In this document: positions 23,401-62,705 of the stretch, piece after piece | Numbering within the stretch: the stretch's first letter is position 1 | Layout: each line of letters opens with the position of its first letter | Source of the DNA: Emcibacter sp. | GTDB lineage: Bacteria; Pseudomonadota; Alphaproteobacteria; Sphingomonadales; Emcibacteraceae | Assembly (NCBI GenBank): GCA_021741205.1 | Contig: JAIOYI010000010.1 | Coordinates: 29,954 to 93,953, forward strand | Direction: 5' to 3' | DNA: 64,000 bases | Position numbers and translations under genes: made by a program | Notes under the pieces: generated by a model | What the model was told of the DNA's origin: nothing | Databases searched by the model: none | The model's input: only the letters and a program-made list of their open reading frames with translations

Positions 23401-24152
23401 AACGTGTTCAAGATAAAGTCGCAATCGTTACAGGCGCCGGACAGGGAATTGGTGCTGCCATTGCACGGCGCCTTGCCCATGAAGGCGCAAAAATTGTTCT
23501 TGTGGATATCAAATCCGAATTCCTCTCCGATATTGTACAGGAACTCACCCAATTAGGCGCCGAAACATTATCCATTGCGGCCGATATCTCAAAAAAGACC
23601 CAAGTGGTTGATATGGTGGCAAAAGCCAAGGATCATTTCGGCACTATTGATATTCTGGTCAATAATGCGGGCATCATTCGGGACGGCTATCTTGCCAAAA
23701 TGAGCGAAGATGACTGGGACAAGGTCATGGACGTGAATTTAAAAGGCCCCTTTCTTTGTTGTCAAGCCGTTTTTGACACCATGAAGTCACAAAATAGCGG
23801 CAAAATTGTTAATATTGTTTCACGCTCATGGCTTGGCAATATTGGTCAAGCCAACTATTCCGCTAGCAAAGGCGGTCTTGTGAGCCTTACCCGCACACTT
23901 GCCCTTGAACTTGCCCGCTTTCAAATCAATGTCAATGCGGTGGCACCGGGCCTTATTGAAACCCCCATGACCCGCAGCATGCCAGAAGAAGCAAGATCCA
24001 GACTTCTTCGCATGCAGCCAACGGGTAAAATGGGATCTGTTGATGATATCGCCTCCGCCGTCTGCTTTTTATCCTCAAATGATGCGGCCTTTATTAATGG
24101 ACAAATACTTCATGTGGACGGCGGGAAAAGTTGTGGCCTTTTATCGCTTTAG
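23394..24152 (+). CDS. SDR oxidoreductase, FabG-like
   Basis: VAIVTGAGQGIGAAIARRLA, NNAGI, YSASKGG, N-terminal TGxxxGIG. Confidence 0.92.
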   Translation: MLKRVQDKVAIVTGAGQGIGAAIARRLAHEGAKIVLVDIKSEFLSDIVQELTQLGAETLSIAADISKKTQVVDMVAKAKDHFGTIDILVNNAGIIRDGYLAKMSEDDWDKVMDVNLKGPFLCCQAVFDTMKSQNSGKIVNIVSRSWLGNIGQANYSASKGGLVSLTRTLALELARFQINVNAVAPGLIETPMTRSMPEEARSRLLRMQPTGKMGSVDDIASAVCFLSSNDAAFINGQILHVDGGKSCGLLSL

Positions 24153-24163
24153 GTGAGGAGAAA

Positions 24164-24646
24164 ATGATGAATTTAACAACAGTTAGCGTGAATGGACTAG
24201 ATTATACCAAGGCCGTATCGCCGTCTATGACCCTGCTCGAATTTTTACGAGAAGAATTAGGTCTTACAGGCACAAAAAACGGATGTGATAGCGGTGAATG
24301 CGGCTGTTGCAGTGTAATGGTTGACGGTAAACCCATGTTATCCTGCCTTATGCTCGTCCTTGAGGCCGAAGGCCACAAGATCACCACCATCGAAGGCATT
24401 GCTCAGGGTAATGACCTCCACCCCGTGCAAGAGGCTATGGTGGAATATGGCGCCATCCAATGTGGATATTGTACGCCTGCCATGGTGATAAACGGGGTTC
24501 ATCTTTTAGAAAATAACAAAAACCCAAGCAATGAGGAGATAAAAGAATGCATTTCCGCTACCGTCTGTCGCTGCACGGGCTATAACAGCATTGAACGTGC
24601 CATCCATAGTGCGGCCGCCAAAATGAAAGGCGGATGTCATGGTTGA
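24164..24646 (+). CDS. hcrC: 4-hydroxybenzoyl-CoA reductase gamma subunit ([2Fe-2S])
   Basis: CDSGECGCCSVMVDGKPMLSC and CGYCTPAMVI...CRCTGY; first gene of a gamma-alpha-beta set; start at MMNLTTV. Confidence 0.8.
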   Translation: MMNLTTVSVNGLDYTKAVSPSMTLLEFLREELGLTGTKNGCDSGECGCCSVMVDGKPMLSCLMLVLEAEGHKITTIEGIAQGNDLHPVQEAMVEYGAIQCGYCTPAMVINGVHLLENNKNPSNEEIKECISATVCRCTGYNSIERAIHSAAAKMKGGCHG

Positions 24647-27065
24647 TCTAACAAAAGGCTATCCCGATAAAGGCTATAAAATTATTGGAAAACCCGTACC
24701 GCTGATCGATTCACGGGCAAAGGTTATGGGGCAAGCCCTCTATACGGACGATATTCGGCTTCATAACCCCTTAACCATTAAAATTTTACGCTCCCCTTAT
24801 CCCAGCGCCAATATTCTATCCCTAGATACAAAGGACGCCCTTGCCCTGAAAGGCGTTAAGGGTATCCTCACGGGGGCTGACTTTAAAAATACCTTTGGTG
24901 TTCTGACCATCAGTAAAGATGAACCCGCCATCGCTCGTGACGTCGTACGCTATGAGGGGGAACCCATTGCTGCGGTCGCTGCAGAAACAGAAACCATCGC
25001 AGAGGCTGCCCTAAAGCTCATCAAAGTGAATTATGAAATAACAGAAGCCGTTCTTGACAGCAAAACCGCACTAAAACCCACAGATCGCCCTTTGCACCCT
25101 GAACTTAACAAAGAAAATAATCTCCATAAAAAAGTGTTGCAGGAATTTGGTGACATGGAACAGGGATTTTCTGAAGCAGATGTTGTTATTGAAAAACGTT
25201 TCCGCTTTGCTTCCATCAATCATGGCTTCACCGAACCCCATGCCACCCAAGTGGAAATTGATAACAAGGGTAATATTACCGTCTATTCCGCAACGCAGGT
25301 GCCTCATTATCTTCATATGGCAATGGCTGAGGTGCTTGAAATACCAGAACATAATATCCGCATTGTAAAACCGCATCTGGGCGGCGGCTTTGGTGGAAAA
25401 AGTGACCCCTTTCCCCATGAAATGATTGCCGCAAAATTCGCCCTTGATCTGGGTCGGAATGTGAAAATTAAATTCACCCGTGAAGAGGTCTTTTTTAGCC
25501 ATCACGGGCGGCATCAAACGGACCTGACCATGAAATTGGGCTTTAGCAAAGAGAAGGGCATTACTGCCTTAGGCCTTGATACGCTCATTGATGGCGGGGC
25601 TTACGGTAGTTTCGGCATTGTGACCACCTATTATAATGGGGTATTATTGCAAGGCCCCTATAAAATACCCAATTTCCGTTTTCATGTGAACCGCATGTAT
25701 ACCAATAAACCCATGTGTGGCGCCATGCGGGGACATGGGGGTGTCAACCCCCGCTTTGCCAGTGAAGTACTTCTTGATATGGCCTGTGCGGAGATAGGAC
25801 TTGATCCCGCCGAAACCCGTCTTAAGATGATCCATAAGGAAAATACCCTCACCACCAATGAATTTCGCATAACTTCTGTTGGCCTGCAAAATGGCTTAAA
25901 AGAGGCCATGCGCCGTACAAAATGGCATGAAAAATACGGCAAACTTCCCTTTGGCAAGGGCATTGGCGTGGCATGTGGTTTCTTTATTTCAGGGAGCGCC
26001 CTACCCATTCACTGGAACAAGCTTCCTTCCTCAACGGTACGGATGACCATTGACCATGACGGCGGTGTTACGGTTTATTCTGGTGCCACCGATATTGGTC
26101 AGGGCAGTGATACCATGCTTGCCCAAATGGCCGCCGAAGTCTTGGGCCAGTCGTTGGGCAACATAAAAGTCATCAGTGCAGATACCCGTATAACACCTGT
26201 TGATCTGGGTAGTTATAGCTCTCGGGTCACCTTTATGGCGGGAAATGCGAGCCGAAATGCGGCCATTCGCATGCGTAAAATTTTGGTCGAGGCGGCTTGT
26301 GCGCTGCTTGACATTGATCCGCCAAAATATGAAAAGCCCGAAAAATCCAAAGACTTCTTCCGACAAGGCGGCTTAAAACCCGACTTTGAACAGGGATTTT
26401 TAGGGCCAAATCCTGACTATTCGGACGGCTTTATTTTTGAGGATGGCCTTATCCGAAGTGAAAACCATAACCAAAGTGTGACCTTCCTTGAGGCGGTGGA
26501 AAAGGCACTTGAATTTGAAGGCATTCTTCAAACCAGCGGCACCTACCGTGCGCCAAAACTTGGCGGAAAATTCAAAGGTGCGGGGGCCGGTCTTAGCCCA
26601 AGCTATAGCTTCACCGCCTTTATCGTTGAAGTGACCGTTGATTCTGAAACTGGATTTATTAAAGTTGACAAGGCCACCTGCGCTCATGACTGTGGATTTC
26701 CCCTTAACCCGCTTGCGGTTAATGGCCAAATCGAGGGCTGCATCCACATGGGACTTGGGCAGGCGCTCATGGAAGAAATGGTTTATGATAATGGAGCGAC
26801 CCAAAATCCGTCTTTTCTCGATTATAAAATTCCGTCCGCCTTTGAACAGCCCGTTGTTGATATTGTCCCAACCTTTAGTGATGACAGCGAAGGCCCCTTT
26901 GGTGCAAAGGAGGCGGGAGAAGGCATATTGGCTCCCATAATTCCCGCCATTGCCAATGCGGTTTATGATGCAGTTGGTATTCGCCTGACCCAACTTCCCA
27001 TGCGGCCTGATCGGGTGATTTTTGCTCTGGAAAAAGCGAAAAAGGACAAAGGAGCCACGTCATGA
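24639..27065 (+). CDS. hcrA: 4-hydroxybenzoyl-CoA reductase alpha subunit (molybdopterin, xanthine dehydrogenase family)
   Basis: GGGFGGKSDPF, CGAMRGHGGVNPRFASE, TDIGQGSDTMLAQMAAEVLG, GAKEAGEGILAPI. Confidence 0.82.
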   Translation: MVDLTKGYPDKGYKIIGKPVPLIDSRAKVMGQALYTDDIRLHNPLTIKILRSPYPSANILSLDTKDALALKGVKGILTGADFKNTFGVLTISKDEPAIARDVVRYEGEPIAAVAAETETIAEAALKLIKVNYEITEAVLDSKTALKPTDRPLHPELNKENNLHKKVLQEFGDMEQGFSEADVVIEKRFRFASINHGFTEPHATQVEIDNKGNITVYSATQVPHYLHMAMAEVLEIPEHNIRIVKPHLGGGFGGKSDPFPHEMIAAKFALDLGRNVKIKFTREEVFFSHHGRHQTDLTMKLGFSKEKGITALGLDTLIDGGAYGSFGIVTTYYNGVLLQGPYKIPNFRFHVNRMYTNKPMCGAMRGHGGVNPRFASEVLLDMACAEIGLDPAETRLKMIHKENTLTTNEFRITSVGLQNGLKEAMRRTKWHEKYGKLPFGKGIGVACGFFISGSALPIHWNKLPSSTVRMTIDHDGGVTVYSGATDIGQGSDTMLAQMAAEVLGQSLGNIKVISADTRITPVDLGSYSSRVTFMAGNASRNAAIRMRKILVEAACALLDIDPPKYEKPEKSKDFFRQGGLKPDFEQGFLGPNPDYSDGFIFEDGLIRSENHNQSVTFLEAVEKALEFEGILQTSGTYRAPKLGGKFKGAGAGLSPSYSFTAFIVEVTVDSETGFIKVDKATCAHDCGFPLNPLAVNGQIEGCIHMGLGQALMEEMVYDNGATQNPSFLDYKIPSAFEQPVVDIVPTFSDDSEGPFGAKEAGEGILAPIIPAIANAVYDAVGIRLTQLPMRPDRVIFALEKAKKDKGATS

Positions 27066-28051
27066 GCACCCTACTTGAAAGTTTCAATTATGTCCGTCCC
27101 ACAAATCTTGACCAATTAAATCTTCTGGTCATGGATTATATCACGAAAGGATATGACTTTACCTTTTCTGCGGGCGGGACAGATATTATTCCGCGACTTA
27201 AAAAACAAATCTTTAATCCTGAAAATCTGATTAGTCTGAGTGGTATAAGTGATCTTAAGGGAATTGAAAAAAAGGGCGAAATTATTATAATTGGTGCCTT
27301 AACCACCCTTGATGATCTCGCGAACCATGATCTTATCAAGAAATATTTTCCCACCCTTGCGCATGCTGCCCATAAGGTTGCAAGCCCCCAAATCAGAAAT
27401 CGGGCAACCCTTGGCGGCAATATCATGGTCGATAATCGCTGTAGCTATATCAATCAAAGTAGCCTCAACCGTGACTGCCACGCCCCTTGTTTTAAAGCGG
27501 ACGGCGATATTTGCCACATTGTGAAGCGCGCCAAACGGGGTGATGAGGTTTTGTGTCAGGCCCGTTTCGTGTCCGATACGGCGCCTGTTTTGTTACTGCT
27601 TGAGGCCAATATCACAATTATGGGTCAAGGGGGTTTACGGAAAATAAAACTCAATGATCTCTATCTCAATGATGGCATTGACAACAGAAGCCTTAGGAAA
27701 GATGAACTCATCACAAAGATTGAGGTCAAAATTCCTGAAAATGAGTCCCTTCATTATGAGAAACTTGCCATCCGTAATGCCCTTGATTTTCCCTCCCTTG
27801 GTGTTGCGGTATGTTTGAGCGAGCAAAATTTAAGCGTGGCCTTAACAGGACTGAACCCAAGGCCTGGACTTTTTAAGGCAAAAATCAAGAATTATAATAA
27901 CTTTGATGAGATGGTATCCGATATCTGTGATCAGGCCTTGGCCTTTGCTGTGACCTATAATCAGGATTTCTTTCCCAGAGCCTACCGAAAAAGCATGATA
28001 CCCGTCTTTATCAAACGTGGTATAAGTAATATCTTGAAGGAAAAAAAATGA
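27062..28051 (+). CDS. hcrB: 4-hydroxybenzoyl-CoA reductase beta subunit (FAD) with HcrB-type Cys-rich insertion
   Basis: FSAGGTDIIPRLK, NRATLGGNIMVDNRCSYINQSSLNRDCHAPCFKADGDICHIV...LCQARFVSDTAPVLL; extra Cys insertion like the [4Fe-4S] loop known for HcrB. Confidence 0.82.
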   Translation: MSTLLESFNYVRPTNLDQLNLLVMDYITKGYDFTFSAGGTDIIPRLKKQIFNPENLISLSGISDLKGIEKKGEIIIIGALTTLDDLANHDLIKKYFPTLAHAAHKVASPQIRNRATLGGNIMVDNRCSYINQSSLNRDCHAPCFKADGDICHIVKRAKRGDEVLCQARFVSDTAPVLLLLEANITIMGQGGLRKIKLNDLYLNDGIDNRSLRKDELITKIEVKIPENESLHYEKLAIRNALDFPSLGVAVCLSEQNLSVALTGLNPRPGLFKAKIKNYNNFDEMVSDICDQALAFAVTYNQDFFPRAYRKSMIPVFIKRGISNILKEKK

Positions 28052-29226
28052 CCGATGTGATGAAAGACTATTTCCTTGATTTGGACAAGGCCGCCCGTGA
28101 CCCAAAGCGAAAAGTAGCATGGTGTACCTCCGTTGGTCCCGCTGAAATTTTGCGGGCTATGGGGTTTGAGGTCTTTTTTCCAGAGAACCACGGCGCAATG
28201 CTTGGGGCAACAAGAGTTTGCATGGATACAATTCCCGTGGCCAACGCCAACGGCTATTCTCCAGAGATTTGCAGTTACCTGACCTCTGATGTGGGGGCTT
28301 ATATGAAGGGGATCACCCCGCTCACCAAGGCTTATGGCATAGAAAGCGTTCCTCATCCCGACGTTTTGGTTTATAACACCAATCAGTGCAAAGATGTGAT
28401 GCATTGGTTTGAATATTATGCCAAGGAATTTAACACGCCCATTTTTGGTATTCATCCCCCAACCAATTTACCCAGCATAAAACAAGAATATATAGATGAT
28501 GTGGCACAACAATTTAAGGATCTTATTGCTTTTCTGGAACCCATTATGGGCCATGCCATGGATCCTGAAAAATTAAAAGAAACCGTTGCGCTGTCTCTGG
28601 AAGCAACCAATCTTTGGTCTGATGTCCTCAATATGGCTCAAACAACCCCAAGCCCTCTGACCTTTTTTGATGGTACTATTTATATGGGCCCCATTGTGGT
28701 CTTGCGTGGCACTCAAATTGCCGTGGATTATTACAAAAATTTATTGGCTGAATTACAAGAAAAGGTCGCCAACAACCATGCCGCCGTTATGGGGGAACAT
28801 AAACGCATCTATTGGGACGGCATGCCCGTTTGGGGACGGCTGCGCAATCTATCCAATATTTTTAAGGAAAATAACGCCTGTGTTGTTGCATCGACCTATT
28901 GCAATAGTTGGGTTTTTTCGGACTTTGACCCCAATGATCCTTTGCCCAGCATGGCGCTGGCCTATATTAAGATATTTATCAACCGCAATGACCAATTCAA
29001 GGAAGCCTATATTGAAAAAATGGTCAAGGATTTCAACGTGGACGGTGTTGTCTTTATGGCCGCACGAACCTGTCCCAACAACAGTAACGCCTATTATAAC
29101 TTACCCCGCAGACTAAAGGATAAAAATATCCCAACCATCATTATTGATGGTGATCTTTGTGATTTACGCTGTTATTCCGATGAACAGTCCGCAACCCTCA
29201 TCGAAGCCTTTTTGGAGACGATTTAA
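28048..29226 (+). CDS. 2-hydroxyacyl-CoA dehydratase / benzoyl-CoA reductase B/C-family subunit (DCCP/YjiM-like possible)
   Basis: AWCTSVGPAEILRAMGFEVFFPENHGAMLGATR; NQCKDVMHWFEYYA; TCPNNSN...IPTIIIDGDLCDLRCYSDEQSATLIEAFLE; PF06050-like pattern with conserved cysteines. Confidence 0.8.
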   Translation: MTDVMKDYFLDLDKAARDPKRKVAWCTSVGPAEILRAMGFEVFFPENHGAMLGATRVCMDTIPVANANGYSPEICSYLTSDVGAYMKGITPLTKAYGIESVPHPDVLVYNTNQCKDVMHWFEYYAKEFNTPIFGIHPPTNLPSIKQEYIDDVAQQFKDLIAFLEPIMGHAMDPEKLKETVALSLEATNLWSDVLNMAQTTPSPLTFFDGTIYMGPIVVLRGTQIAVDYYKNLLAELQEKVANNHAAVMGEHKRIYWDGMPVWGRLRNLSNIFKENNACVVASTYCNSWVFSDFDPNDPLPSMALAYIKIFINRNDQFKEAYIEKMVKDFNVDGVVFMAARTCPNNSNAYYNLPRRLKDKNIPTIIIDGDLCDLRCYSDEQSATLIEAFLETI

Positions 29227-30056
29227 TGTCAAAAAAGAAAGATGATATAATTTTTTGGGGGGTTGATTGCGGCAGCTCAGAAATCAAGGTTGTCGCCCTT
29301 GATCAAGCGGGTAATATCCTCCTCAAACGCAAACAGAAAACCTTGTTCCCTTTGCAAGATCATGTGCGCCATGCCCTGTCTGGTGACGGAGATGATTTAT
29401 CGCCCTTTATAACACCAGAAAGCACAGAAATAAAACAGGGTCATAAGATCATAGCTACAGGTTACGGTAGAAAATACATTAATTTTGCCACCGAAAATTT
29501 GACCGAAATTAAGGCTCATTTCATGGGAGTCGAAAAGCAGCTTGATCTGGGTGACCGCTATAGCATTATTGATATCGGTGGACAGGATTCAAAAATTATT
29601 GCGGTCGACCATAACAAAGTGGATCAATTCATCATTAACCGAAAATGTGCGGCGGGAACGGGTGCCTATATCGAGGAACTAGGCCACAGATTAGAAGTGC
29701 CCTTAAGTGATATGACAGCATTGGCCCAAAATAACGATAAGGAATTATCTCTCAACAGCTTTTGCACCGTATTTTCAGGACAAGAGGTTATCAAAGTTCT
29801 CATGAACGGGGAACGGGTGGAAAATATCATTTATGCCCTCTATAGCTCGGTTGTAAAGCGGGTCATGGAAATGACTGCCATCACCACCGATATTGTTGCC
29901 TTTTCTGGTGGGGTATTGGAATTTCATCCAAAACTTGTACAAATGTTCACCGAAAAATTGCGTGAGGCCAATCCTAACATCAAAACCATGCTCGCCCCCA
30001 ATGCGCAATATTGCGGCGCTATTGGTGCGGCTCTTTTTGGCATGACGGCCACATAA
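29226..30056 (+). CDS. BadF/BadG/BcrA/BcrD-family ATPase (2-hydroxyacyl-CoA dehydratase activase / BCR ATPase)
   Basis: GVDCGSSEIKVVALD, IIDIGGQDSKIIAV, NRKCAAGTGAYIEELGHRLEVPL, NSFCTVFSGQEVI, AFSGGV; the two cluster-binding Cys motifs are present. Confidence 0.88.
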   Translation: MSKKKDDIIFWGVDCGSSEIKVVALDQAGNILLKRKQKTLFPLQDHVRHALSGDGDDLSPFITPESTEIKQGHKIIATGYGRKYINFATENLTEIKAHFMGVEKQLDLGDRYSIIDIGGQDSKIIAVDHNKVDQFIINRKCAAGTGAYIEELGHRLEVPLSDMTALAQNNDKELSLNSFCTVFSGQEVIKVLMNGERVENIIYALYSSVVKRVMEMTAITTDIVAFSGGVLEFHPKLVQMFTEKLREANPNIKTMLAPNAQYCGAIGAALFGMTAT

Positions 30057-50832: not shown

Positions 50833-52881
50833 TTATCCCTCAATTTTTGAAAAATCTGCAACCTTATGCATGGTATTTCTAATATCTGCGAGAAGACGAA
50901 GGCGGTTCTTTCGTTCTGTGTCCACATCGCTGTTCACGGTCACCTTATCAAAGAAAGCATCAATGGCAGGACGAAGCTTGGCCAAATGGCTCATGGCGTC
51001 TTCGAATTTTTCCTGAGAAAGAATGTTATCCAACTTGGCCTTCAAGCCATTCAAAGTCTTAAATAATTCCTGTTCTTCGGGTAAGTTGCCCATTGTGGCA
51101 TCACCCGTTATGGGGCCGTCTTTTTTCTCTTCCGCCTTTAAGATATTGGCCGCCCGCTTATAGCCCGCAAGCAAATTCGTACCCTCGTCAGTCGTCAAAA
51201 AATTCTGCAAAGCCTCCACCCGTGCCAACATTCGCACAAGGTCATCTTCACCACCGAGTGAGAATACCGCTGTGATCAAATCATGACGCACGCCTTGTTC
51301 TTTCAAATGGACTTTCAAGCGATCAGCAAAGAAATCGAGAAGATCAGTCATTTTATCTCCTCTCAAGCTTAAAGCTTCATCAGCATAAGCAAATAGCGAT
51401 AATAAATTCAACCGAAGTTTATTTTCAACAACCAAGCGGATAATTCCTAAGGCCGCACGGCGCAAAGCAAAGGGATCTTTGGAGCCTGTGGGTTTTTCAT
51501 CAATACCAAAAAATCCAACCAATGAATCCAGTTTCTCTGCCAAGGCAACCACAACGGAGACGGGATTTGTCGGACAACTATCACTTGGCCCTTTGGGCGA
51601 ATAATGTTCCACAATAGCATTGGCAACGATCTCTGACTCACCTTGCTTTTCTGCATAATATTTACCCATCAGGCCCTGAAGATCGGCAAATTCCCCAACC
51701 ATGCCAGACACGAGGTCAGCCTTACAAAGCAAGGCGGCTCTTTTGGCTTGCGTTACATCAGCACCAATTTTATCCGCAATATAACCTGATAACTTAGCGA
51801 GTCGTTCAACCCGCTGTCCTACTGTCCCAAGTTTTTCATGAAAGACGATATCATTCAGTGCAGGCAAGCGATCATCAAGGGAAATTTTTAAATCCTGATC
51901 CCAGAAAAATTTGGTATCGGACAAGCGGGCGCGCAGAACTCGCTCATTGCCCGCAATAATTTTCTTGCCCTGATCCGTCGTTTTCATATTGGCGACAAAG
52001 ATAAATTTATGGGCAAGTTTGCCGTTCTTATCCATAAGCGAGAAATATTTCTGGTGGCTTTTCATAGCACTCATCAAGGCTTCATTGGGTACGTCAAGAA
52101 AATCCTTGTCAAATTCGCCCATCATGACCACGGGATATTCCGCAAGACCCACAATTTCATCAAGCAAGCCCTCGTCCTCGACCAAGGAAAGCTCTGCATC
52201 CTTCGCCAAAAGATGTGCCTTATCATGAATCAGTTTTTTGCGCATCTCAGGTTCCAGAATAACGTGAGCCTTAGCGAGATTATCCTTATAATCCTCAAAG
52301 GAGGAAACAGTAAAGCTATCCGGTGATAAAAACCGATGACCCCGTGTTTGATTGCCACTCATCAGATTGTCCCCCAGATCAAAGGCGACAATCCTATCAT
52401 CCAAAAGACATAAAATACTGTGCATGGGTCTTACCCAACGGAGCGTTCCGCTTCCCCAGCGTTGTGATTTTGGCCATGGAAAATTACGGATCATATCGGG
52501 CAAAAATTCCGTCAAAAGTTCCGTTGTTTTGCGTCCCTTTTTCTCTATAATGGCATAAAGAAAGGTGCCCTTGGCCTCTTCTCTTATTTCCACTTGTTTC
52601 TGGGTAACATTCGCCCCCTTTAAAAACCCCTCAATGGCTTTCTCTGGCGCATCGGCACGCGGGCCACGGCGTTCTTCTCGTGTGTCGGGCTGTTCATCAT
52701 CAAGTCCCACAATATGAAGACATAGGCGACGGGGGGTCACATAAGCGTCCGCACTCTGAAATTTCAGGCCACCCTCGGTTAATTTGGCGGCAACCAACTG
52801 TTTTAGGTCAGAGGCAGCACGGGCCTGCATACGGGCGGGGATTTCTTCGGAAAAGAGCTCAAGCAGAAAATCAGCCATCAT
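50833..52881 (-). CDS. glyS: Glycyl-tRNA synthetase beta subunit
   Basis: [18 protein letters not shown]...; [10 protein letters not shown]; full length. Confidence 0.97.
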
Positions 52882-53774
52882 ACCGCCTCCCCGATTGAGA
52901 CAAGATAGGCTTCACAGCATGCCTTAGCAAGGGTGCGCACCCGCCCGATATAGGCTTGCCGTTCAGTGACGCTAATCACCCCGCGCGCATCGAGCAAATT
53001 AAAGATGTGGGACGCCTTAATACACTGGTCATAGGCGGGCAGCGGGTAATATTTTTTGTCTGCCTGCCCCATTTTCAAAATATCCTGACATTCCATTTCG
53101 GCATCTTTAAAATGCTGAAAAAGCCGTTCCACATTGGCCAGTTCAAAATTATAGGCGGAAAATTCTTTCTCATTTTGTAAAAACACATCGCCGTAAGTGA
53201 CCCCGTTTCCATTCCAATCAAGGTCATAGACATTATCCACACCCTGAATATACATAGCGAGCCTTTCAAGGCCATAGGTCAATTCCCCCATGACGGGCTT
53301 GCAGTCAAAGCCGCCCACTTGTTGAAAATAAGTAAATTGGCTCACCTCCATGCCGTCGCACCAAACCTCCCACCCAAGCCCCCATGCGCCGAGGGTCGGG
53401 CTTTCCCAATCATCCTCCACAAAGCGAATATCATGATCATACGCATTGATGCCAAGGACTTCTAAGCTTTTTAAATAGAGTTCCTGAATATTGTCAGGCG
53501 ACGGTTTTAAGACCGTTTGAAACTGATAATAATGTTGCAATCTGTTGGGATTTTCGCCGTAGCGACCGTCCGTTGGTCTGCGGCAGGGTTGCACATAAGC
53601 CGCTTTCCATGGTTTAGAGCCCAGAGAACGCAAGGTAGTTGCCGCCTGAAAAGTTCCCGCCCCCATTTCAACATCATAGGGCTGGAGGATAACGCAACCC
53701 TGCTCCGCCCAGTAATTTTGCAATTTCAGAATAAGTGACTGAAAGGCCTTTTCATTTCTTCGGGGACTGTCCAT
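52878..53774 (-). CDS. glyQ: Glycyl-tRNA synthetase alpha subunit
   Basis: [42 protein letters not shown]. Confidence 0.98.
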
Positions 53775-53893
53775 CAGGTCTTGTTCTTTCTTCCCATATA
53801 CGCACGCTTAAGAAACTATCTTAATTTTATAGCAGGAAATTACTGGTCTAGCCCCCTGCCGTCAAGGGATGAATGCCGATAAATGTTAATATT

Positions 53894-54955
53894 TTAATGT
53901 AATACATTATCCGCTCTTATCTGCATAAAACATAAACCCTCAATATCCGGTTGAATATTGATCTCTACGATCAAGGGACCCTGTTCTGTTATGGTGATAT
54001 CAAACCCCGCAAAACGGGTATTGGTCAAAAGCTTTAATGTCTTTATTCCTATTTGTTTTGCCTCAGACCAGAAAGGAACAATCACACCCAGAACCTGTGC
54101 TCCATGGTCCGGGTGAGTGGCGTGAGAGGGATGTTCTGGCGTGAAAAAACATATTTTCTGCAAGGCCCCCGTTTGCATATCTATTTTACTGACCATACCA
54201 CCTGCTGAACTGTTATCGACCAAACTTCCGCCGCGGCCAATTCTGAGAAATCCTCCAAGCACAGTAACATCGCCCGTTTGATCCTCCAAAACATACATTC
54301 TGATGGTATTTACACTTGTAGCATTTAAGGATTTCAACACAGGATGCTGTGAAATATATTTTTCTATTAACCAGCCCCTTCGATCTTCGCCCATTAACAA
54401 TTGAAACAAATCCTCTACGTCATATTCCATCTTGCTCGATATATGGCAAGCATAAAGATTTCCGTCTTTTTTCGTTATATCAAAAGCCTTAAACCCTTCT
54501 CCGCCAGATCCCTCCAGAAGTTTAAAACAAAGTCTTTCCCCAAGATGATTTTTCAAAAGATCATCCAGATCATGGGGATTTCTGAGATTGCCACCAAGAG
54601 AATTTATTCCCCACGCCTCATTTAAAGTTCCCACATAATCAGCAGATGGAATTTTAAACAGATTGAACACCGCTTTTTCATATAATTTATACTGGGTAAT
54701 GCCCTGAAATTTTCGCTCATTTAAGGCATAAATTCTTTTTATGTAATTTTTTCTACTAAGAAAGCCCGTCTTATAGTCCCATGATTTTGATTTGTGCCAC
54801 ATTTCTGCATAATGATAGGTGGAATAGCCAAACCCCCTTGTTAATTGAAACCATGATATTTCTGCTATTTGACGAAAAGTTGAGAGATGATCTTGCTTTG
54901 CCCGCTTTTGGCATAGTTTATAGACTTTGATAAATTTCTGTATTGTTGTTGTCAT
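53894..54955 (-). CDS. Sugar-transfer-associated-type ATP-grasp protein
   Basis: CFKLLEGSGGEGFKAFDI, GWLIEKYISQHPVLKSLNATSVNTIRMYVLED, FAGFDITITEQGPLIVEINIQPDIEGL. Confidence 0.8.
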   Translation of the reverse strand: MTTTIQKFIKVYKLCQKRAKQDHLSTFRQIAEISWFQLTRGFGYSTYHYAEMWHKSKSWDYKTGFLSRKNYIKRIYALNERKFQGITQYKLYEKAVFNLFKIPSADYVGTLNEAWGINSLGGNLRNPHDLDDLLKNHLGERLCFKLLEGSGGEGFKAFDITKKDGNLYACHISSKMEYDVEDLFQLLMGEDRRGWLIEKYISQHPVLKSLNATSVNTIRMYVLEDQTGDVTVLGGFLRIGRGGSLVDNSSAGGMVSKIDMQTGALQKICFFTPEHPSHATHPDHGAQVLGVIVPFWSEAKQIGIKTLKLLTNTRFAGFDITITEQGPLIVEINIQPDIEGLCFMQIRADNVLH

Positions 54956-54958
54956 TTT

Positions 54959-55837
54959 CTATAATTCTCGCCTACTCTCCACATATTTTATTAGCGCCTC
55001 ACGGGGCCAAACAAGATAATAAACCTTTGGGATATATTTTCCCGCCTCAAATAACAATTTACGCTTTTTAGATCTGGCAAAAGCCGAAGACTGAATACCC
55101 TCAGTATTATGAAAGAAAATTTCTGCCCCATTCTGGGTCGGAATTTCCCTGAGATAAGATAGTTTTGGGCTGATTTCCGATATAACAGGATCCATATACC
55201 ATACCATACGCATCATAGCGGTCAGCTCTGGATTTAATTTAAAAATTTCTGCCACAACCGCATAGGATTTTTCCCAACCTTCGGGGCTGAAGTTATTAAG
55301 ATTTGGGGTGTGAATATGTGTCGCAAGAACGGGCTTGCGGGCTTTGATTTTAAATAAAAGAAAATAAGCCATTTTCAGAAATTGCCCAATACCCTTTCTG
55401 AAAAGCATGATACGAGGAATGCCTGATATTTCAACGACACAGGAACCTATAGGAAATAATCTGCCGCAGCATATTCCCAAATCTTTAGTAAATACGTCAT
55501 TTTTCCAATCAAAAACATAATCGCTATCCTGTTCAATATTGGACTTTATGCGATCAAATTCTATTTGATAAAGTGAAAGCAACGTATCAGGAAACCGTAT
55601 TGTCAAATCATTGGGCTGGAATTTTTTTATCAGCTTCAATAAAACCAATTTATGAAAAGCCACATAATCGGAAAGTGCTGTTTTTTCATAAAATTGCAGG
55701 AGATCAGGGCTTCTATAATGATATTTTTCATAAGGCGGGATGTCTTTTAAAAGATCAATATAATTTTCTAGGATAATATCAATCTGTTCATAGGAAATCC
55801 CTAATTGTTGCTCTACGATATCATATATAGCCCGCAT
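54959..55837 (-). CDS. Uncharacterised protein coupled to ATP-grasp gene
   Basis: 292-aa ORF 3 nt upstream of the ATP-grasp gene, same strand; no family recognised. Confidence 0.75.
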   Translation of the reverse strand: MRAIYDIVEQQLGISYEQIDIILENYIDLLKDIPPYEKYHYRSPDLLQFYEKTALSDYVAFHKLVLLKLIKKFQPNDLTIRFPDTLLSLYQIEFDRIKSNIEQDSDYVFDWKNDVFTKDLGICCGRLFPIGSCVVEISGIPRIMLFRKGIGQFLKMAYFLLFKIKARKPVLATHIHTPNLNNFSPEGWEKSYAVVAEIFKLNPELTAMMRMVWYMDPVISEISPKLSYLREIPTQNGAEIFFHNTEGIQSSAFARSKKRKLLFEAGKYIPKVYYLVWPREALIKYVESRREL

Positions 55838-55854
55838 TCATTTACCTCATGAAT

Positions 55855-56709
55855 TCATAATCCAAATCTACTCCACAGAGATTTACTTTCCATGGTTGCC
55901 ATAATTTCATCACTTAATTTAAGGTTTGCGCTCTTAATCCCAATCAAACTTTTAATCAGTCCCTTTTCCTCTTTAATGCGTTTGAATTTGGTTTTATCAC
56001 CAAACTTTTCCCTGCACACAGAATGAATATCACCAATACCATCAATAAGGCCCAGTTTCAAAGCCTCGTTTCCCGCCCAGAATTGACCAGAGAACATCAA
56101 TTTTTCGGTTCCTTTCAAGCGATCCCCTCGACTTTCTTTAACCAAATTTTTAAAGAAAACGTGAATTTCCTTTTGCATCTCTTTTAAAAGTTTTACATCT
56201 TTTTCTTTTTCTGGCTGGAAAGGATCAAGAACAGATTTATTGTCTCCTGCGGCATAAACACGCCGTTCAACCCCAATTTTCTCAATAGCCTTATGAAAGC
56301 CAAAGCCCGTGGATATAACCCCAATGCTGCCAATGATAGAAGCTTCATGAGCATAAATTTCTTCTGCAGCAAGTGAAATAAGATAGCCACCCGATGCCGC
56401 CACATCCTCAGCAAAGGCATAAACGGGTATCTTCTTTTCTTCTGATAATCTTTGAATGTGTCGCATAATCAATTCGCTTTGCACAGGCGATCCACCGGGG
56501 GAATTAATGGCAAGCGCCACCGCTTTCAAATTATAGACATCAAAGGCTTGTTCAATTTTTTCTTCAAGACCCGCCAGATTTAAGGCCGTAGAAAAACGAC
56601 TGGTCGATCCAATCACACCTTCCAAAGGCAAGATCGCCACAACAGGGGTCGGATTTTGAAATAAAGGAATGGGAATCCGGATCAATAATTCTCTTAATTT
56701 TTTCAACAT
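55855..56709 (-). CDS. S49 family peptidase (SppA-like)
   Basis: ALAINSPGGSPVQSELIMRHIQ, AASGGYLISLAAEEIYA, GSIGVI. Confidence 0.93.
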   Translation of the reverse strand: MLKKLRELLIRIPIPLFQNPTPVVAILPLEGVIGSTSRFSTALNLAGLEEKIEQAFDVYNLKAVALAINSPGGSPVQSELIMRHIQRLSEEKKIPVYAFAEDVAASGGYLISLAAEEIYAHEASIIGSIGVISTGFGFHKAIEKIGVERRVYAAGDNKSVLDPFQPEKEKDVKLLKEMQKEIHVFFKNLVKESRGDRLKGTEKLMFSGQFWAGNEALKLGLIDGIGDIHSVCREKFGDKTKFKRIKEEKGLIKSLIGIKSANLKLSDEIMATMESKSLWSRFGL

Positions 56710-56745: not shown

Positions 56746-57531
56746 CTATTTTGTTATATCCAATGCCGCACCGTGACGCAGTATTGCCTCTGCGATTGGC
56801 GTGAAAGTTCCCTCTGATGTATGCACAATCAATCCTGGTTTCAAGGCAATATTTCCTTTACTGCCTTTTCTAGCCTGAATAATGACCCGCCTCGCCTCTT
56901 TGTCTTTTGATGACCATAGGGGGAAAATGATAATATCACCAGCCTTACCATGAAGTGCGGCAATAATATCATCAAGCCTGTCCGCCCGATGCACCAAGGT
57001 TAAATGGCCTAAGGGTTTTGTCATACGAAGGCACAAATGAATCCATTTATGAAGTTCAATATGGCTATCCATGTGGGCAACAGCCCTTGTTTCAAAGGGG
57101 GATGCGGTCGCATCTGTTTTTTTTAAATATGGAGGATTTGAAATCACATGATGATAACTGTTTGGTTCGCATTGGCAAGGCGGGTTTTCAATATCTCCCT
57201 GAAAATATTCAATAAAATGGCCAAATTTATTTTCCTCCGCATTGCGCTTAGCGAGATGCAGCAATTCTTCCTGTAATTCAATACCATGAAAAATATTGTT
57301 TGAAACTTGATGGTGGGTTCTGGATAAAAGACAGCTCAAAATACCGCCCGTTCCCGCCCCCATATCAAGAATATGATCCCCCTTATCATAAGCAATTGCG
57401 GCGGCAAGAAAAACCGTGTCGGTTGCAATGCGATATCCCTCATCAGGTTGGAACAACTTAATTGCTCCCCCCAAAAAATCATCCTGCGTTATGTTCTTTA
57501 ACTTTGTCATTTTATGACTGTACCACCCCAT
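56746..57531 (-). CDS. tRNA1(Val) (adenine-N6)-methyltransferase-like
   Basis: ILDMGAGTGGILSCLLSR; ISNPPYLKK (NPPY). Confidence 0.87.
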   Translation of the reverse strand: MGWYSHKMTKLKNITQDDFLGGAIKLFQPDEGYRIATDTVFLAAAIAYDKGDHILDMGAGTGGILSCLLSRTHHQVSNNIFHGIELQEELLHLAKRNAEENKFGHFIEYFQGDIENPPCQCEPNSYHHVISNPPYLKKTDATASPFETRAVAHMDSHIELHKWIHLCLRMTKPLGHLTLVHRADRLDDIIAALHGKAGDIIIFPLWSSKDKEARRVIIQARKGSKGNIALKPGLIVHTSEGTFTPIAEAILRHGAALDITK

Positions 57532-57952: not shown

Positions 57953-58972
57953 GTGGCTGTCATCATATCATTTGAAGAAGAACAAGCAAAGGCGGATACA
58001 GCCCTTCTGCGCCTACAGGCTCTTGTTGCAGACGATATGATTAAGGTTAATCACACCATCATCCATAAAATGCAAAGCCCTGTTTCGCTTATCCCGAAGC
58101 TAGCGGGGCATCTGATCGCCTCTGGTGGCAAAAGATTGCGCCCCATGCTCACGCTGGCAACATCTCTTATGTGTGGCTATAAGGGTGAACGACATGCGGA
58201 GCTTGCCGCTTGCGTTGAGTTTATTCATTCTGCGACGCTTCTCCATGATGATGTTGTGGATGAGAGCGACCTTAGACGGGGTTTAGAGACCGCAAATGCG
58301 GTGTGGGGCAACAAGGCCAGCGTTCTGGTCGGCGACTTTCTGTTCAGCAGATCATTTGAATTGATGGTGGCGGATGGCTCCCTTGAGGTGCTTGCTATTT
58401 TATCCAATGCCTCTTCCGTCATTGCCGAGGGCGAGGTATTACAGCTTACCACCGCCAATGATATGAACACCACTGAAGACGCCTATATGCAGGTCATCGT
58501 TGCCAAAACCGCCGCTCTTTTTGCCGCCTCCTGCGAGATTGGAGCGGTCATCGCAGAAGAAAGCAAAGCTAAGCAAGCCGCTCTTAAAAGCTACGGCAAA
58601 AATCTTGGTATTGTCTTTCAATTGATTGATGATGTACTTGATTTTTCTGCTGAGCAAAAAAAGCTCGGCAAGTCCGTCGGCGATGACTTTCGTGAAGGTA
58701 AGGTGACCCTACCTATTGTGCTTGCCTTTAGACGAGGTAATACAACTGAACGGGAATTTTGGTGCCGTACCATCGAAGAATTGGAACAGAATGACGATGA
58801 TCTGAAAAAAGCCATTAACTTAATGAAAAAGCATAATGCGCTTTCAGACACCGTTGAAAGAGCCCGCCATTACGGCTCCATCGCTAAAGATGCTCTGGCC
58901 ATTTTCCCTGATGATGAATATCGTAAGGCCCTGACAGATATTGTTGATTTCTGCATTAACCGCGCTTATTGA
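57953..58972 (+). CDS. ispB: Polyprenyl (octaprenyl-type) diphosphate synthase, GTG start
   Basis: GGKRLRPMLTLA, LLHDDVVDESDLRRG, FQLIDDVLDFSAEQKKLGKSVGDDFREGKVTLP. Confidence 0.95.
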   Translation: MAVIISFEEEQAKADTALLRLQALVADDMIKVNHTIIHKMQSPVSLIPKLAGHLIASGGKRLRPMLTLATSLMCGYKGERHAELAACVEFIHSATLLHDDVVDESDLRRGLETANAVWGNKASVLVGDFLFSRSFELMVADGSLEVLAILSNASSVIAEGEVLQLTTANDMNTTEDAYMQVIVAKTAALFAASCEIGAVIAEESKAKQAALKSYGKNLGIVFQLIDDVLDFSAEQKKLGKSVGDDFREGKVTLPIVLAFRRGNTTEREFWCRTIEELEQNDDDLKKAINLMKKHNALSDTVERARHYGSIAKDALAIFPDDEYRKALTDIVDFCINRAY

Positions 58973-58977
58973 TCATT

Positions 58978-59418
58978 TCACTTCTTTTTTCCGCTAAAAT
59001 ATTGAGCAATCCAATAGTCCATGCCAAATTTTCCACTGCCAAAGGTCATAATAAGACCGAGCAATAGCATCCAATGATAATGATCCGTTGTGTCAGGATA
59101 AACGAACAGTTCAATGACAAGTGTCATACCAAAAAGACCAACAGCGGCCAGAGGCGTCATAAAGCCCAAAACCAACAGAACAGGCAGCGATAATTCGGCA
59201 ATCGTGGCAAGATAGGCGGCTATTTCCGGCGACAATATGGGAACATTATACTCGTCTGTAAATAAAGCAATCGTAGAATCCCAGCTTTTAATTTTCACAA
59301 GCCCCGACATAAAAAAAGTCTTTGCAATCCATAATCTTGCCGCAAGTAAGGCTATGGATTGTAGCCAATTTGTCTTGCTCGTTAATTTATCCATCATTCG
59401 ACATGCTTGCGTAATCAT
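58978..59418 (-). CDS. DoxX family membrane protein, fourth gene of bufferin-type operon
   Basis: RLWIAKTFFMSGLVKIKSWDSTIALFTDEYNVPILSPEIAAYLATIAELSLPVLLVLG; directly downstream of the DUF2063 gene. Confidence 0.9.
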   Translation of the reverse strand: MITQACRMMDKLTSKTNWLQSIALLAARLWIAKTFFMSGLVKIKSWDSTIALFTDEYNVPILSPEIAAYLATIAELSLPVLLVLGFMTPLAAVGLFGMTLVIELFVYPDTTDHYHWMLLLGLIMTFGSGKFGMDYWIAQYFSGKKK

Positions 59419-59421
59419 AAC

Positions 59422-60183
59422 TTATCCTTTCTCACTTATAAAAACCCCAAGCGACACCGCTTGTGAAAATTCTTGTTGAAAATCTTGAATCTGCTCTCCA
59501 TTATTTTCAATTTTCACCATGGCATCGGCAAAGCTTTCGCCGTTTTGGCACGATGTGACCAGAATGCCAAAGGCATCTGAAATTTTTCGTATCAAAACAA
59601 CATCGTCCTGAGTACGCCATACCAGTATTTTGTGAGGATCTTCTATAAGATGGATTGCTTCTACTTCCACTTTTTGATGTTCCATCCAGATGTCAAGCGC
59701 ATTAAAGCGTTGATCCAATATATGAACGCTTGGATGGAATTTCAAAGAAAGATAAGGATTTAACGATAACCCATTCAGCAAGTCTTTAAAGCTCAAGGAT
59801 ACGGCATCATCAGCAATCTCAGCCTCAAAATGCGCCCACTCCAACGCGGCAACATCAGGCAAATAAAGAAATTTCTGTGTCTGTGGAAATGATTTTAAAA
59901 AAGAAGGGATATCACCGCCAAAATGATGGCGATTACCCAAAGTCTGCGGATGCGCTCTGATATAATGCTTTACCAAGATCCTAAAAAAATCTTCGTCAAG
60001 TATCTTTTGCACCACAGGAAAGGCGTTGGCCAAAATATCCGTCAAACCAAAAAGCGTATTATTATAATAAATATCAAGCCTTGCGGACGTGCATAAGGTG
60101 GGATCAAGAAAGTCCTCACTCGTGCGCTCACCCGTATAAATATCATGGATGAAGGACGCCTGAATTTCATGCAGCGTTGTCAT
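59422..60183 (-). CDS. bufC: DUF2063 protein, BufC-like MNIO partner
   Basis: LHEIQASFIHDIYTGERTSEDF...RLDIYYNNTLFGLTDILANAFPVVQKILDEDFFRILVKHYIRAHP. Confidence 0.9.
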   Translation of the reverse strand: MTTLHEIQASFIHDIYTGERTSEDFLDPTLCTSARLDIYYNNTLFGLTDILANAFPVVQKILDEDFFRILVKHYIRAHPQTLGNRHHFGGDIPSFLKSFPQTQKFLYLPDVAALEWAHFEAEIADDAVSLSFKDLLNGLSLNPYLSLKFHPSVHILDQRFNALDIWMEHQKVEVEAIHLIEDPHKILVWRTQDDVVLIRKISDAFGILVTSCQNGESFADAMVKIENNGEQIQDFQQEFSQAVSLGVFISEKG

Positions 60184-61027
60184 GACATGCCCTCTTCACT
60201 TCTGCTCTGATGTTATCTGCCTTAACCGCCTCACCAATCAGAACATCTAGGGCTGGAATATCAGTGTCCCATTCGATCAAAGTGGGAACATCTCCAAAAC
60301 GTCTTAAGGCATAGGCATAAAGCTCCCAAACTTCTGGATAAACCGGTTTCCCGTGGGTATCGATGTAAATTTTTTCGCCATTCTCATGCTCATTGATCTG
60401 ATATCCCGCCAGATGAAATTGTTTAACCCGTCCGTCATCTATAATTCCATCTATATAGGCTTTTGCATCAATTCCAAGATTATGAGCACTGACGGTGATA
60501 TTATTTATATCCAAAAGTAGCCCACAATCGCTGCGGCTGACTAGTGCGTTGAGAAAGTCCATTTCCGTAAAATCAATATTCGCAAAGGCCAGATAATTGG
60601 ATGGGTTTTCAATAAGTATCTGTCGGTCTATTTTATCCTGAAATTCCAAAACATGATCAACAAAAATATCCAAAGCTTCATTGGTATAGGGTACTGGCAA
60701 TAAATCAGGCACATGAATATGACTATAGCCACTCCACGATAAATGCTCAGAAACAAAAACGGGGTCAATGTCATCGACAAGAGACTTGATCTGTCGCAGA
60801 TGATCCTGGTCTAGTCCATCGGCACGACCCAAGGAAAGACCTACACCATGAAGGGTGACGGGATATATTTGCGAAATTTCTTTTAAAATTTTTCGGGGTT
60901 GCCCACCACCAAAATAATTTTCTGAATGGGCTTCCACAAAGCCAATTTCTGTTTTGGTGGTCAGAAGTTCCCGCGCATGGCACGCACGTAGCCCGATTCC
61001 TGATCGTTCAAGCGTATGTTTTTGCAT
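60167..61027 (-). CDS. bufB: DUF692 MNIO-family peptide-modifying oxidase, BufB-like
   Basis: GIGLRACHARELL...VEAHSENYFGGG, LHGVGLSLG, SEHLSWSG, ILIENPSNYL, LLDINNITVSAHN. Confidence 0.95.
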   Translation of the reverse strand: MQKHTLERSGIGLRACHARELLTTKTEIGFVEAHSENYFGGGQPRKILKEISQIYPVTLHGVGLSLGRADGLDQDHLRQIKSLVDDIDPVFVSEHLSWSGYSHIHVPDLLPVPYTNEALDIFVDHVLEFQDKIDRQILIENPSNYLAFANIDFTEMDFLNALVSRSDCGLLLDINNITVSAHNLGIDAKAYIDGIIDDGRVKQFHLAGYQINEHENGEKIYIDTHGKPVYPEVWELYAYALRRFGDVPTLIEWDTDIPALDVLIGEAVKADNIRAEVKRACHDNAA

Positions 61028-61053
61028 TATGGAAACTCCTGAGCCTTCTAAAA

Positions 61054-61341
61054 TTACATTTTAACTGTCATACCACCAACGATTTTGTCGCATGTGCCTT
61101 TTGGAACATGAATCCATTCACCAGCCGCACCATCAGTTTTTGCTTGACCAGCACAGCTATGGCTATTGGCTTTACAATCATTTTGACCCGCCTTAACAAT
61201 ACCCGCACATTTTTCAGAACTTTCCTTACCGTCCTTGCCATCCATACCATTCTTGGCTTGAACGTTTGATGCCATCAAAGCAGCACCCGCAACAAAAGTT
61301 GTTAAAGCAGCCATAGTCATAAGCGTTTTAGAGAGTTGCAT
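61054..61341 (-). CDS. bufA: DUF2282 bufferin-type precursor peptide
   Basis: Signal peptide, then [48 protein letters not shown] with four Cys; followed by BufB/C/DoxX. Confidence 0.93.
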
Positions 61342-61436
61342 GTTATTTTCCTTTTCAGTCAGTTGTTATGTGGACAAAAAATAGCCCGTTGATTAAAATA
61401 AAGCTGAACATACCTTGAGTGCGTGTTCAAGATGTT

Positions 61437-61463
61437 AATACGTGCCTCAAAGGGTTTGGTTAC
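61437..61463 (-). promoter_or_regulatory. Candidate ECF-sigma promoter for the buf operon: GTAACC-N15-CGTATT
   Basis: Minus-strand GTAACC (61463-61458), 15-nt spacer, CGTATT (61442-61437), about 96 nt upstream of bufA. Confidence 0.5.
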
Positions 61464-61505
61464 ATCCAAACGAAAAAATGTTAAAAATATATTTTATAAG
61501 GATTT

Positions 61506-61532
61506 GTAACCAAAATCATATGTCAACGTATA
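61506..61532 (+). promoter_or_regulatory. Candidate ECF-sigma promoter on the sigma-gene side: GTAACC-N15-CGTATA
   Basis: Same element and spacing as the divergent minus-strand copy; overlaps the annotated 5' end of the sigma ORF. Confidence 0.4.
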
Positions 61533-62071
61533 ACAGTAAGAGATGGGATGAATGGATGCAGGCCACTTTAAGCGGTGACCAAACGGCTTATCGTTTACTT
61601 TTAACGGATTTGCGGCCATGGCTTACGGCATATTTTAAAAAACGCATTCATCACAATACCGTTGAGGATTTGGTGCAGGATACGTTAATGACACTTCATC
61701 ATAAAAGACAAACTTTTAATCCAGACTATCCCTTTGGTCCATGGATTTCAGCCGTGGCACGCCACCGTTGGATTGACCACATGCGAAAGACTCTTAAATA
61801 TGTTGAAACAGAAATTGATGAAAATCATCCTTCAGAGGATCATAAGCAAGATGAATGTGCAAAGCATGACGTGCGGACACTTCTTAACCTCATTCCAGAA
61901 ACGCAGGCTCGAATGATCGAAATGATGAAATTACAAGAAATGACAGTAGCGGAAATATCATGCCAAACAGGACACAGCCCATCATCCGTCAAAATCATGG
62001 TTCATCGTGGCATGAAAAAAATGATGGCCGCTGTTGAGGATATTAAAGTAGAGGACATTAAAGATGAATGA
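61520..62071 (+). CDS. ECF RNA polymerase sigma factor (Caulobacter SigF-like)
   Basis: LVQDTLMTLHHKRQTFNPDYPFGPWISAVARHRWIDHMRK; MTVAEISCQTGHSPSSVKIMVHRGMKKM; start uncertain (61442, 61520 or 61556). Confidence 0.9.
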   Translation: MSTYNSKRWDEWMQATLSGDQTAYRLLLTDLRPWLTAYFKKRIHHNTVEDLVQDTLMTLHHKRQTFNPDYPFGPWISAVARHRWIDHMRKTLKYVETEIDENHPSEDHKQDECAKHDVRTLLNLIPETQARMIEMMKLQEMTVAEISCQTGHSPSSVKIMVHRGMKKMMAAVEDIKVEDIKDE

Positions 62072-62705
62072 TCTTTTAATTGATCAATTGGTCAATGATC
62101 TGAACCCAAAAAAACCGTTGCTCAATAAGTCCTTATGGAAACATTGCACGATTTGTCTTGTTGCTGTGATCATTGTGATTCTATCCTTTATGGGGCTTCG
62201 TCTTGACCATTTAGCCGCCATGCAAAACGGCGCCATGTTCTGGAAGCCTCTGATATTTTTTACCGCATGGCTAGGCAGCATCCTACTCATCACCGATATT
62301 TCTCGACCGCAAGGCGGTTTGAAAAAAAGACATATTATACCCCTTGTGACGGCGGGCATGGTGTTCCTTTGGCAATTTTTTATGCAGAGGCATTCATTTT
62401 CTTGGGATGATATTACACTCGCCCTCAATCACACTTCTGCGCTTGTCTGTGTCTCCATGATTATGGGGTTTGGCCTTATGACGATGATCATAATATGGAA
62501 ATATTGGTTATTAAAAACCGCCACCGAACACCCTACTCTTTTAGGGGGATTGGCTGGATTTAGCGCAGGTTGCCTTTCCGCCACGGCCTATGCGTTACAT
62601 TGTAATCATGACACTATTTTGTATATCTCGGTCTATTACATACTGCCCATTTTGTTGCTTTGCCTTATGGGGGCGTACATGGGCCGGAAATTTCTACGCT
62701 GGTAA
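62064..62705 (+). CDS. NrsF/DUF1109-like membrane anti-sigma factor
   Basis: Six-TM ~213-aa protein overlapping the sigma gene end: MNDLLIDQLVNDLNPKKPL...GGLAGFSAGCLSATAYALHCNHDTILYISVYYILPI. Confidence 0.85.
   Translation: MNDLLIDQLVNDLNPKKPLLNKSLWKHCTICLVAVIIVILSFMGLRLDHLAAMQNGAMFWKPLIFFTAWLGSILLITDISRPQGGLKKRHIIPLVTAGMVFLWQFFMQRHSFSWDDITLALNHTSALVCVSMIMGFGLMTMIIIWKYWLLKTATEHPTLLGGLAGFSAGCLSATAYALHCNHDTILYISVYYILPILLLCLMGAYMGRKFLRW

Follow-up and report, generated by a model that had tools for sequence, protein, structure and literature searches.

The window analysed here is a stretch of 64,000 nt from an 18-contig, 2.57 Mb assembly of Emcibacter sp., and it carries two adjoining minus-strand genes set into a conserved block of housekeeping genes, in the interior of contig C10 and not at a contig end (Table 1). 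One gene encodes an ATP-grasp protein (ATPG) and the other a protein of 292 residues (U292). They are separated by 3 nt (54956-54958) and stand between glyQ and a gene for an S49 peptidase, as a sequence-only reading of the same DNA had placed them. The genes glyQ, glyS and ppdK lie on one side of this insert, and the S49 gene, a methyltransferase gene, a 78-aa ORF and ispB on the other; the 78-aa ORF occupies the place where the sequence-only reading had put a DUF2007 gene, its family being given by position only. The S49 protein is 76-83% identical to its congener proteins, counting full-length matches only. Between S49 and glyQ there is no further ORF of at least 80 aa, and so no integrase.

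Table 1. Features of the window at and around the insert, and of a second gene set in the same stretch.
Feature	Position	Strand	Description
glyQ	52878..53774	-	Downstream flank of the variable site; PF02091, E 1e-147
glyQ promoter-like element	53837..53865	-	TTGACG-N17-TAATTT; -35-like 53860-53865, -10-like 53837-53842
ATPG	53894..54955	-	353 aa, PF14397 (ATPgrasp_ST); predicted carboxylate-amine/alcohol ligase
U292	54959..55837	-	292 aa, undescribed alphaproteobacterial family
S49-U292 gap	55838..55854	-	17 nt with an AGGT-type ribosome-binding site, read from the sequence
S49 peptidase	55855..56709	-	Upstream flank of the variable site; PF01343, E 1e-29
Methyltransferase	56746..57531	-	Member of the conserved block; Pfam MTS/Methyltransf_31, conserved order
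ispB-type prenyl synthase	57953..58972	+	Outer end of the conserved block; conserved order in relatives
DoxX	58978-59418
DUF2063	59422-60183
MNIO/DUF692 enzyme	60167-61027
DUF2282 precursor-like protein	61054-61341		PF10048, E 5e-23
Sigma-factor-like gene and possible anti-sigma gene	61442-62705		Beside the Bufferin-type operon; from sequence only

Two other gene sets of the window were recorded in passing. A Bufferin-type operon occupies positions 58978-62705 (Table 1); bufferins are described in PMC12452194 as copper-chelating peptides modified by MNIO enzymes. Positions 24131-30056 hold genes that resemble the xanthine dehydrogenase family, judged from the letters alone (24131-28051), followed by genes matching PF06050 (2-hydroxyglutaryl-CoA dehydratase D-component) and PF01869 (BcrAD/BadFG ATPase), a set that possibly encodes an aromatic or hydroxyacyl-CoA reductase.

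The spacing between S49 and glyQ was compared across 21 genomes of the same family, and in 13 of them (G001, G003, G005, G006, G007, G008, G009, G015, G016, G018, G019, G021 and G024) the gap measures 12-177 bp, against about 2.08 kb in the window; in G017 it reaches 492 bp and holds no convincing gene. The methyltransferase, S49 and glyQ-glyS-ppdK genes keep the same order family-wide, and the remaining junctions of the block are short or constant in the genomes compared (methyltransferase-S49, 12-57 bp; glyQ-glyS, -1 to 35 bp; glyS-ppdK, 7-153 bp), so that the uptake of extra DNA is particular to the S49-glyQ junction rather than a property of the whole block. The accessory insertion into a conserved housekeeping block proposed by the sequence-only reading is therefore real.

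Beyond that reading, the junction proved to be a recurrent accessory-gene site of the family and not a one-off, with cargo in six further genomes and thus seven filled sites including this one. On the opposite strand, G010 carries a 392-aa PP-loop protein (SGGIDS motif) together with an ATPG 45% identical to that of the window and, beside this intact copy, an ATP-grasp remnant (L066 9341-9693), a C-terminal piece of 98 aa that shares 48% identity with ATPG. A formyltransferase-polysaccharide deacetylase fusion occupies the junction in G013, a deacetylase with a sulfotransferase in G012 and a deacetylase in G022; a formyltransferase in G011 and a glycosyltransferase in G020 were read from the S49 side only, their contigs ending before glyQ. 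Each of the seven cargoes can be classed with surface-glycan genes, provided that ATPG and U292 count as such, in a small sample of filled sites from relatives many of which are fragmented draft assemblies and whose genes were named from Pfam, motifs or sequence reading. The site thus holds interchangeable glycan-tailoring cargo. Inserts of 1.3 kb between S49 and glyQ in another family of the order (G036, G042 and G048) were considered as further cargo and set aside as a separate standing arrangement; they comprise a methionine-aminopeptidase-like gene and, in G036 and G048, a chorismate-mutase-like gene, both so named from sequence.

Upstream of glyQ, the element TTGACG-N17-TAATTT recurs in eight of the nine empty junctions that were read, G016 showing the variant TAGTTT and G006 no such element, and it is kept in all four filled junctions in which the glyQ side could be read (the present genome, G010, G012 and G013). 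Since it is retained in filled junctions, the cargo is bounded, in the junctions legible at both ends, by the S49 stop codon and the element, which we call only promoter-like because it was not among the hits of a scan for the sigma-70 consensus. The space between these two limits would accommodate between one and three genes for surface-glycan tailoring, apparently leaving the flanking S49 and glyQ genes undisturbed. The 17-nt gap and its AGGT-type ribosome-binding site suggest that U292 is co-transcribed with S49, and transcription of the U292-ATPG pair would then probably start with the methyltransferase-S49 operon upstream.

ATPG belongs to the sugar-transfer-associated type of ATP-grasp protein, as the sequence-only reading had it: residues 114-351 match PF14397 (ATPgrasp_ST) with E 3e-37 and 128.7 bits, the cut-off being 31.4, and the YheCD and RimK models match below cut-off. 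In an alignment of ATPG with seven homologues, which extends over the length of the proteins, K145, R219, D319, E331 and N333 are conserved or nearly so; with active-site positions assigned from this alignment and general knowledge of the fold, the protein appears intact and is predicted to be active. No experimentally characterised member of PF14397 was found in the literature searched. The relatives of ATPG in G009, G006 and G065 each have a polysaccharide deacetylase as a neighbour; a second, CarB/Ter-like ATP-grasp gene lies nearby in G009 and G065, with a similar-looking ORF in G006, and the G065 locus also encodes a flippase, a sulfotransferase and a glycosyltransferase of family 2. PF14397 proteins more remote from ATPG, encoded on large plasmids of Shinella and Rhizobium, occur with a flippase, a deacetylase and a type III PLP enzyme, and the Shinella cluster additionally with an ACP, an AMP-binding protein and a nucleotide-sugar dehydrogenase. 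ATPG thus resembles the family in its score, four times the cut-off, in its retained ATP-grasp residues and in relatives that belong to exopolysaccharide-type gene sets; it differs in standing outside a full polysaccharide locus, and no glycan gene was identified directly beside it in the window.

A plausible working model for ATPG is the TupA-like ATP-grasp domain of Campylobacter jejuni Cj1438, which amidates glucuronate in the capsule (PMC11800379) and is likewise an ATP-grasp ligase of capsule synthesis. That domain belongs to another ATP-grasp family, the TupA model being absent from the Pfam matches of ATPG, and ATPG, unlike it, is not fused to a glycosyltransferase; Cj1438 is thus a precedent in reaction type and says nothing for family membership. 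The present genome encodes one protein of the UDP-glucose dehydrogenase family, so a uronic-acid substrate is possible, and its deacetylases are encoded elsewhere and not in the insert.

Two further observations came from these comparisons. Contig C16 of the present genome (L159 8133-12823) holds a second, compact glycan-tailoring cluster of a deacetylase, a GNAT protein, a CarB/Ter-like ATP-grasp protein and a flippase, which again has housekeeping genes around it, dxs-like and tlyA-like ORFs among them, and which speaks for the glycan reading. A family of 389-398 aa with an SGGIDS/SGGIDG PP-loop motif repeatedly adjoins or lies near ATPgrasp_ST genes (L066 6819-7997, L069 9990-12530, L072 3021-4190); it obtains only weak DUF6395/QueC scores and is possibly another undescribed partner.

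U292 is an undescribed family, in agreement with the sequence-only reading, which had recognised none: it matched no model in Pfam (E<=1), NCBIfam, PADLOC or PHROGs, and profile searches against the PDB with alignments of 8 and 19 U292 sequences returned chance matches only (E 0.38 or worse). Judged from the 19-sequence alignment, in which homologues down to about 20% identity share 18 invariant residues, including D119, H174, D216, S256, R259, Y268 and R279, it is a genuine coding sequence, and such a set of invariant residues is what would be expected of an enzyme. No hydrophobic stretch reaches transmembrane strength (Kyte-Doolittle maximum 1.48 over 19 residues). AlphaFold models were of low confidence (mean pLDDT 42.5 and 46.0), probably because only two sequences were supplied as input. 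From the alignment, the C-terminal half (SxxR...GxY...WPR) might be taken as GNAT-like. A defence-system reading was rejected for want of a PADLOC match, and a 281-aa gene of the Shinella and Rhizobium ATP-grasp clusters, GNAT-like by eye, was rejected as a relative since it had no HMM match.

Homologues of U292 are rare: 4 of 401 genomes in the order have one, as do 5 of 385 sampled from the class and 26 of 149 belonging to another family, f70; G016, G039, G119, G630 and G761 are among the carriers. The 19-sequence profile found nothing convincing outside Alphaproteobacteria among 299 phylum-wide genomes, a weak partial match in G965 (E 8.5e-4) being treated as chance, and no homologue was found on viruses or plasmids. 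In f70, a deacetylase of a single family adjoins U292 tail to tail, with at most one small ORF between them, at nine loci (L094, L095, L126-L130, L134 and L135) out of 14 that were compared. Among the other loci, an FkbH-like HAD gene lies between the two in L132 and L133, the distance is about 4 kb in L131, and no deacetylase was seen on the short contigs of L136 and L137. The f70 U292-deacetylase genes occupy at least three settings, named from sequence: ispE/glyQ, dinB-like with nicotinate phosphoribosyltransferase-like, and ftsZ/lpxC-like. Three f70 genomes carry them between ispE and glyQ, and the glyQ flank is therefore used in a second lineage. The homologues of G016 and G119 lie among housekeeping genes (priA/atpH-like and ATP-synthase/gloB-like, respectively) without an adjoining glycan gene. 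Small membrane-like proteins of 99-106 aa adjoin U292 homologues at L087 (10188-10487) and L135 (5528-5848); they look alike by eye and come from two distant families, and the one at L135 has no Pfam match.

Polysaccharide deacetylases (NodB/PF01522) are thus frequent neighbours of both ATPG and U292 and are themselves cargo of the same junction, although none lies in the insert of the window. A further point of contact is the exosortase-A (XrtA/PEP-CTERM) type of exopolysaccharide cluster, one of which, in G630, contains a U292 homologue (L093:6785-7711) together with an XrtA-associated acyl-CoA ligase that clears the cut-off of TIGR03098, an ACP-like protein, a PLP decarboxylase that falls just short of the cut-off of TIGR03099, and deacetylases; however, no such cluster was seen in the window, and U292 matches no NCBIfam model and so is not a named component. 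The sequence-only reading would have been undercut by a place of the pair in a known exopolysaccharide pathway or by earlier characterisation of the 292-aa family, and this holds by half: an exopolysaccharide-type context was indeed found, but no specific pathway containing the pair, and U292 is uncharacterised.

The same reading had suggested that the two genes could form an undescribed amide- or ester-ligase system. The part that stood is the assignment of ATPG to a glycan-associated family of carboxylate ligases, with cell-surface glycan as the best-supported of the pathways suggested; the idea of a dedicated pair fared less well. A two-component ligase for peptide, lipid or glycan, one protein activating the acid and the other binding or delivering the acceptor, would fit the 3-nt spacing in the window and the ATPG-ATPG-U292 arrangement in G039, a genome of a different family of the order in which U292 directly follows two ATPG genes. 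These are, however, the only two lineages in which U292 stands beside the ATPG clade, and a survey of co-occurrence found the families mostly apart: G016 has both on separate contigs, no ATPgrasp_ST protein over cut-off was present in three f70 genomes tested, G119 or G761, all of which carry U292, and no U292 match was present in the ATPG carriers G006, G009, G010 and G065. We therefore regard a dedicated two-component ligase as unlikely; the pair is probably not an obligate two-part enzyme, and U292 and ATPG are more aptly regarded as separate components that come from one functional pool.

We consider it rather probable that the junction is an accessory site and that U292-ATPG is an accessory module for surface-glycan tailoring. 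ATPG would use ATP to activate a carboxylate, of a uronic-acid sugar or an amino acid, to an acyl phosphate, and the attack of an amine or hydroxyl would yield an amide- or ester-decorated building block of capsule or exopolysaccharide. U292 would be a soluble enzyme that serves a pathway of this sort next to polysaccharide N-deacetylases; its linkage to deacetylases suggests that it acts on or near the freed amino sugar, and we would guess at group transfer, with either the freed amine or an activated precursor as the acceptor. Several points count against the glycan reading: in this genome the pair has no complete exopolysaccharide locus beside it, U292 matches no known fold, and the U292 homologues of G016 and G119 have no glycan gene next to them. 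Peptides, proteins and small metabolites are also substrates of ATP-grasp ligases, so that a glycan substrate of ATPG is presumed, and the pair might instead make a secreted or intracellular small molecule, such as an amino-acid amide or a dipeptide-like metabolite. Products of this kind are common for ATP-grasp ligases, and natural-product modules are called to mind by the partners found near relatives (PP-loop, ACP, AMP-ligase, PLP-enzyme and FkbH-like); the cargo of the junction and the neighbours of ATPG, however, are mostly polysaccharide deacetylases, flippases, sulfotransferases and glycosyltransferases, and we give a small-molecule product little credence. Less probable still, to the point of being improbable, is non-functional drift, in which transferred genes decay in a tolerated site with no role here. 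Scattered presence, the ATP-grasp remnant of G010 and the low G+C of the two insert genes (36.6 and 38.9%, vs 42.7% for the window) speak for drift, but the adjacent S49 gene itself has only 40.0% G+C, so low G+C alone does not imply foreign origin; moreover, neither reading frame is broken or shortened, the active-site residues of the ATP-grasp and all 18 invariant residues of U292 are in place, and the cargo at the junction is functionally uniform.

Within the favoured reading of a glycan-tailoring module, a more specific proposal is offered tentatively: U292 may be a new enzyme family, so far restricted to Alphaproteobacteria, that acts right after polysaccharide N-deacetylation, either attaching a group to the amino sugar so freed or preparing the acceptor for amidation by an ATP-grasp ligase, and the S49-glyQ junction may be a cassette site where genes for such decorations pass between related species, singly or a few at once. 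The diversity of surface polysaccharides is usually sought in large capsule or O-antigen loci. In the present case the exchange seems to concern individual tailoring genes, at a short site that borders an essential tRNA-synthetase gene, and locus-based surveys would thus miss such modifications. ATPgrasp_ST seems to be without a biochemically assigned member in the literature searched, and U292, whose family is undescribed, whose invariant residues are enzyme-like and whose genes recur beside polysaccharide deacetylases, provides a concrete and testable starting point.
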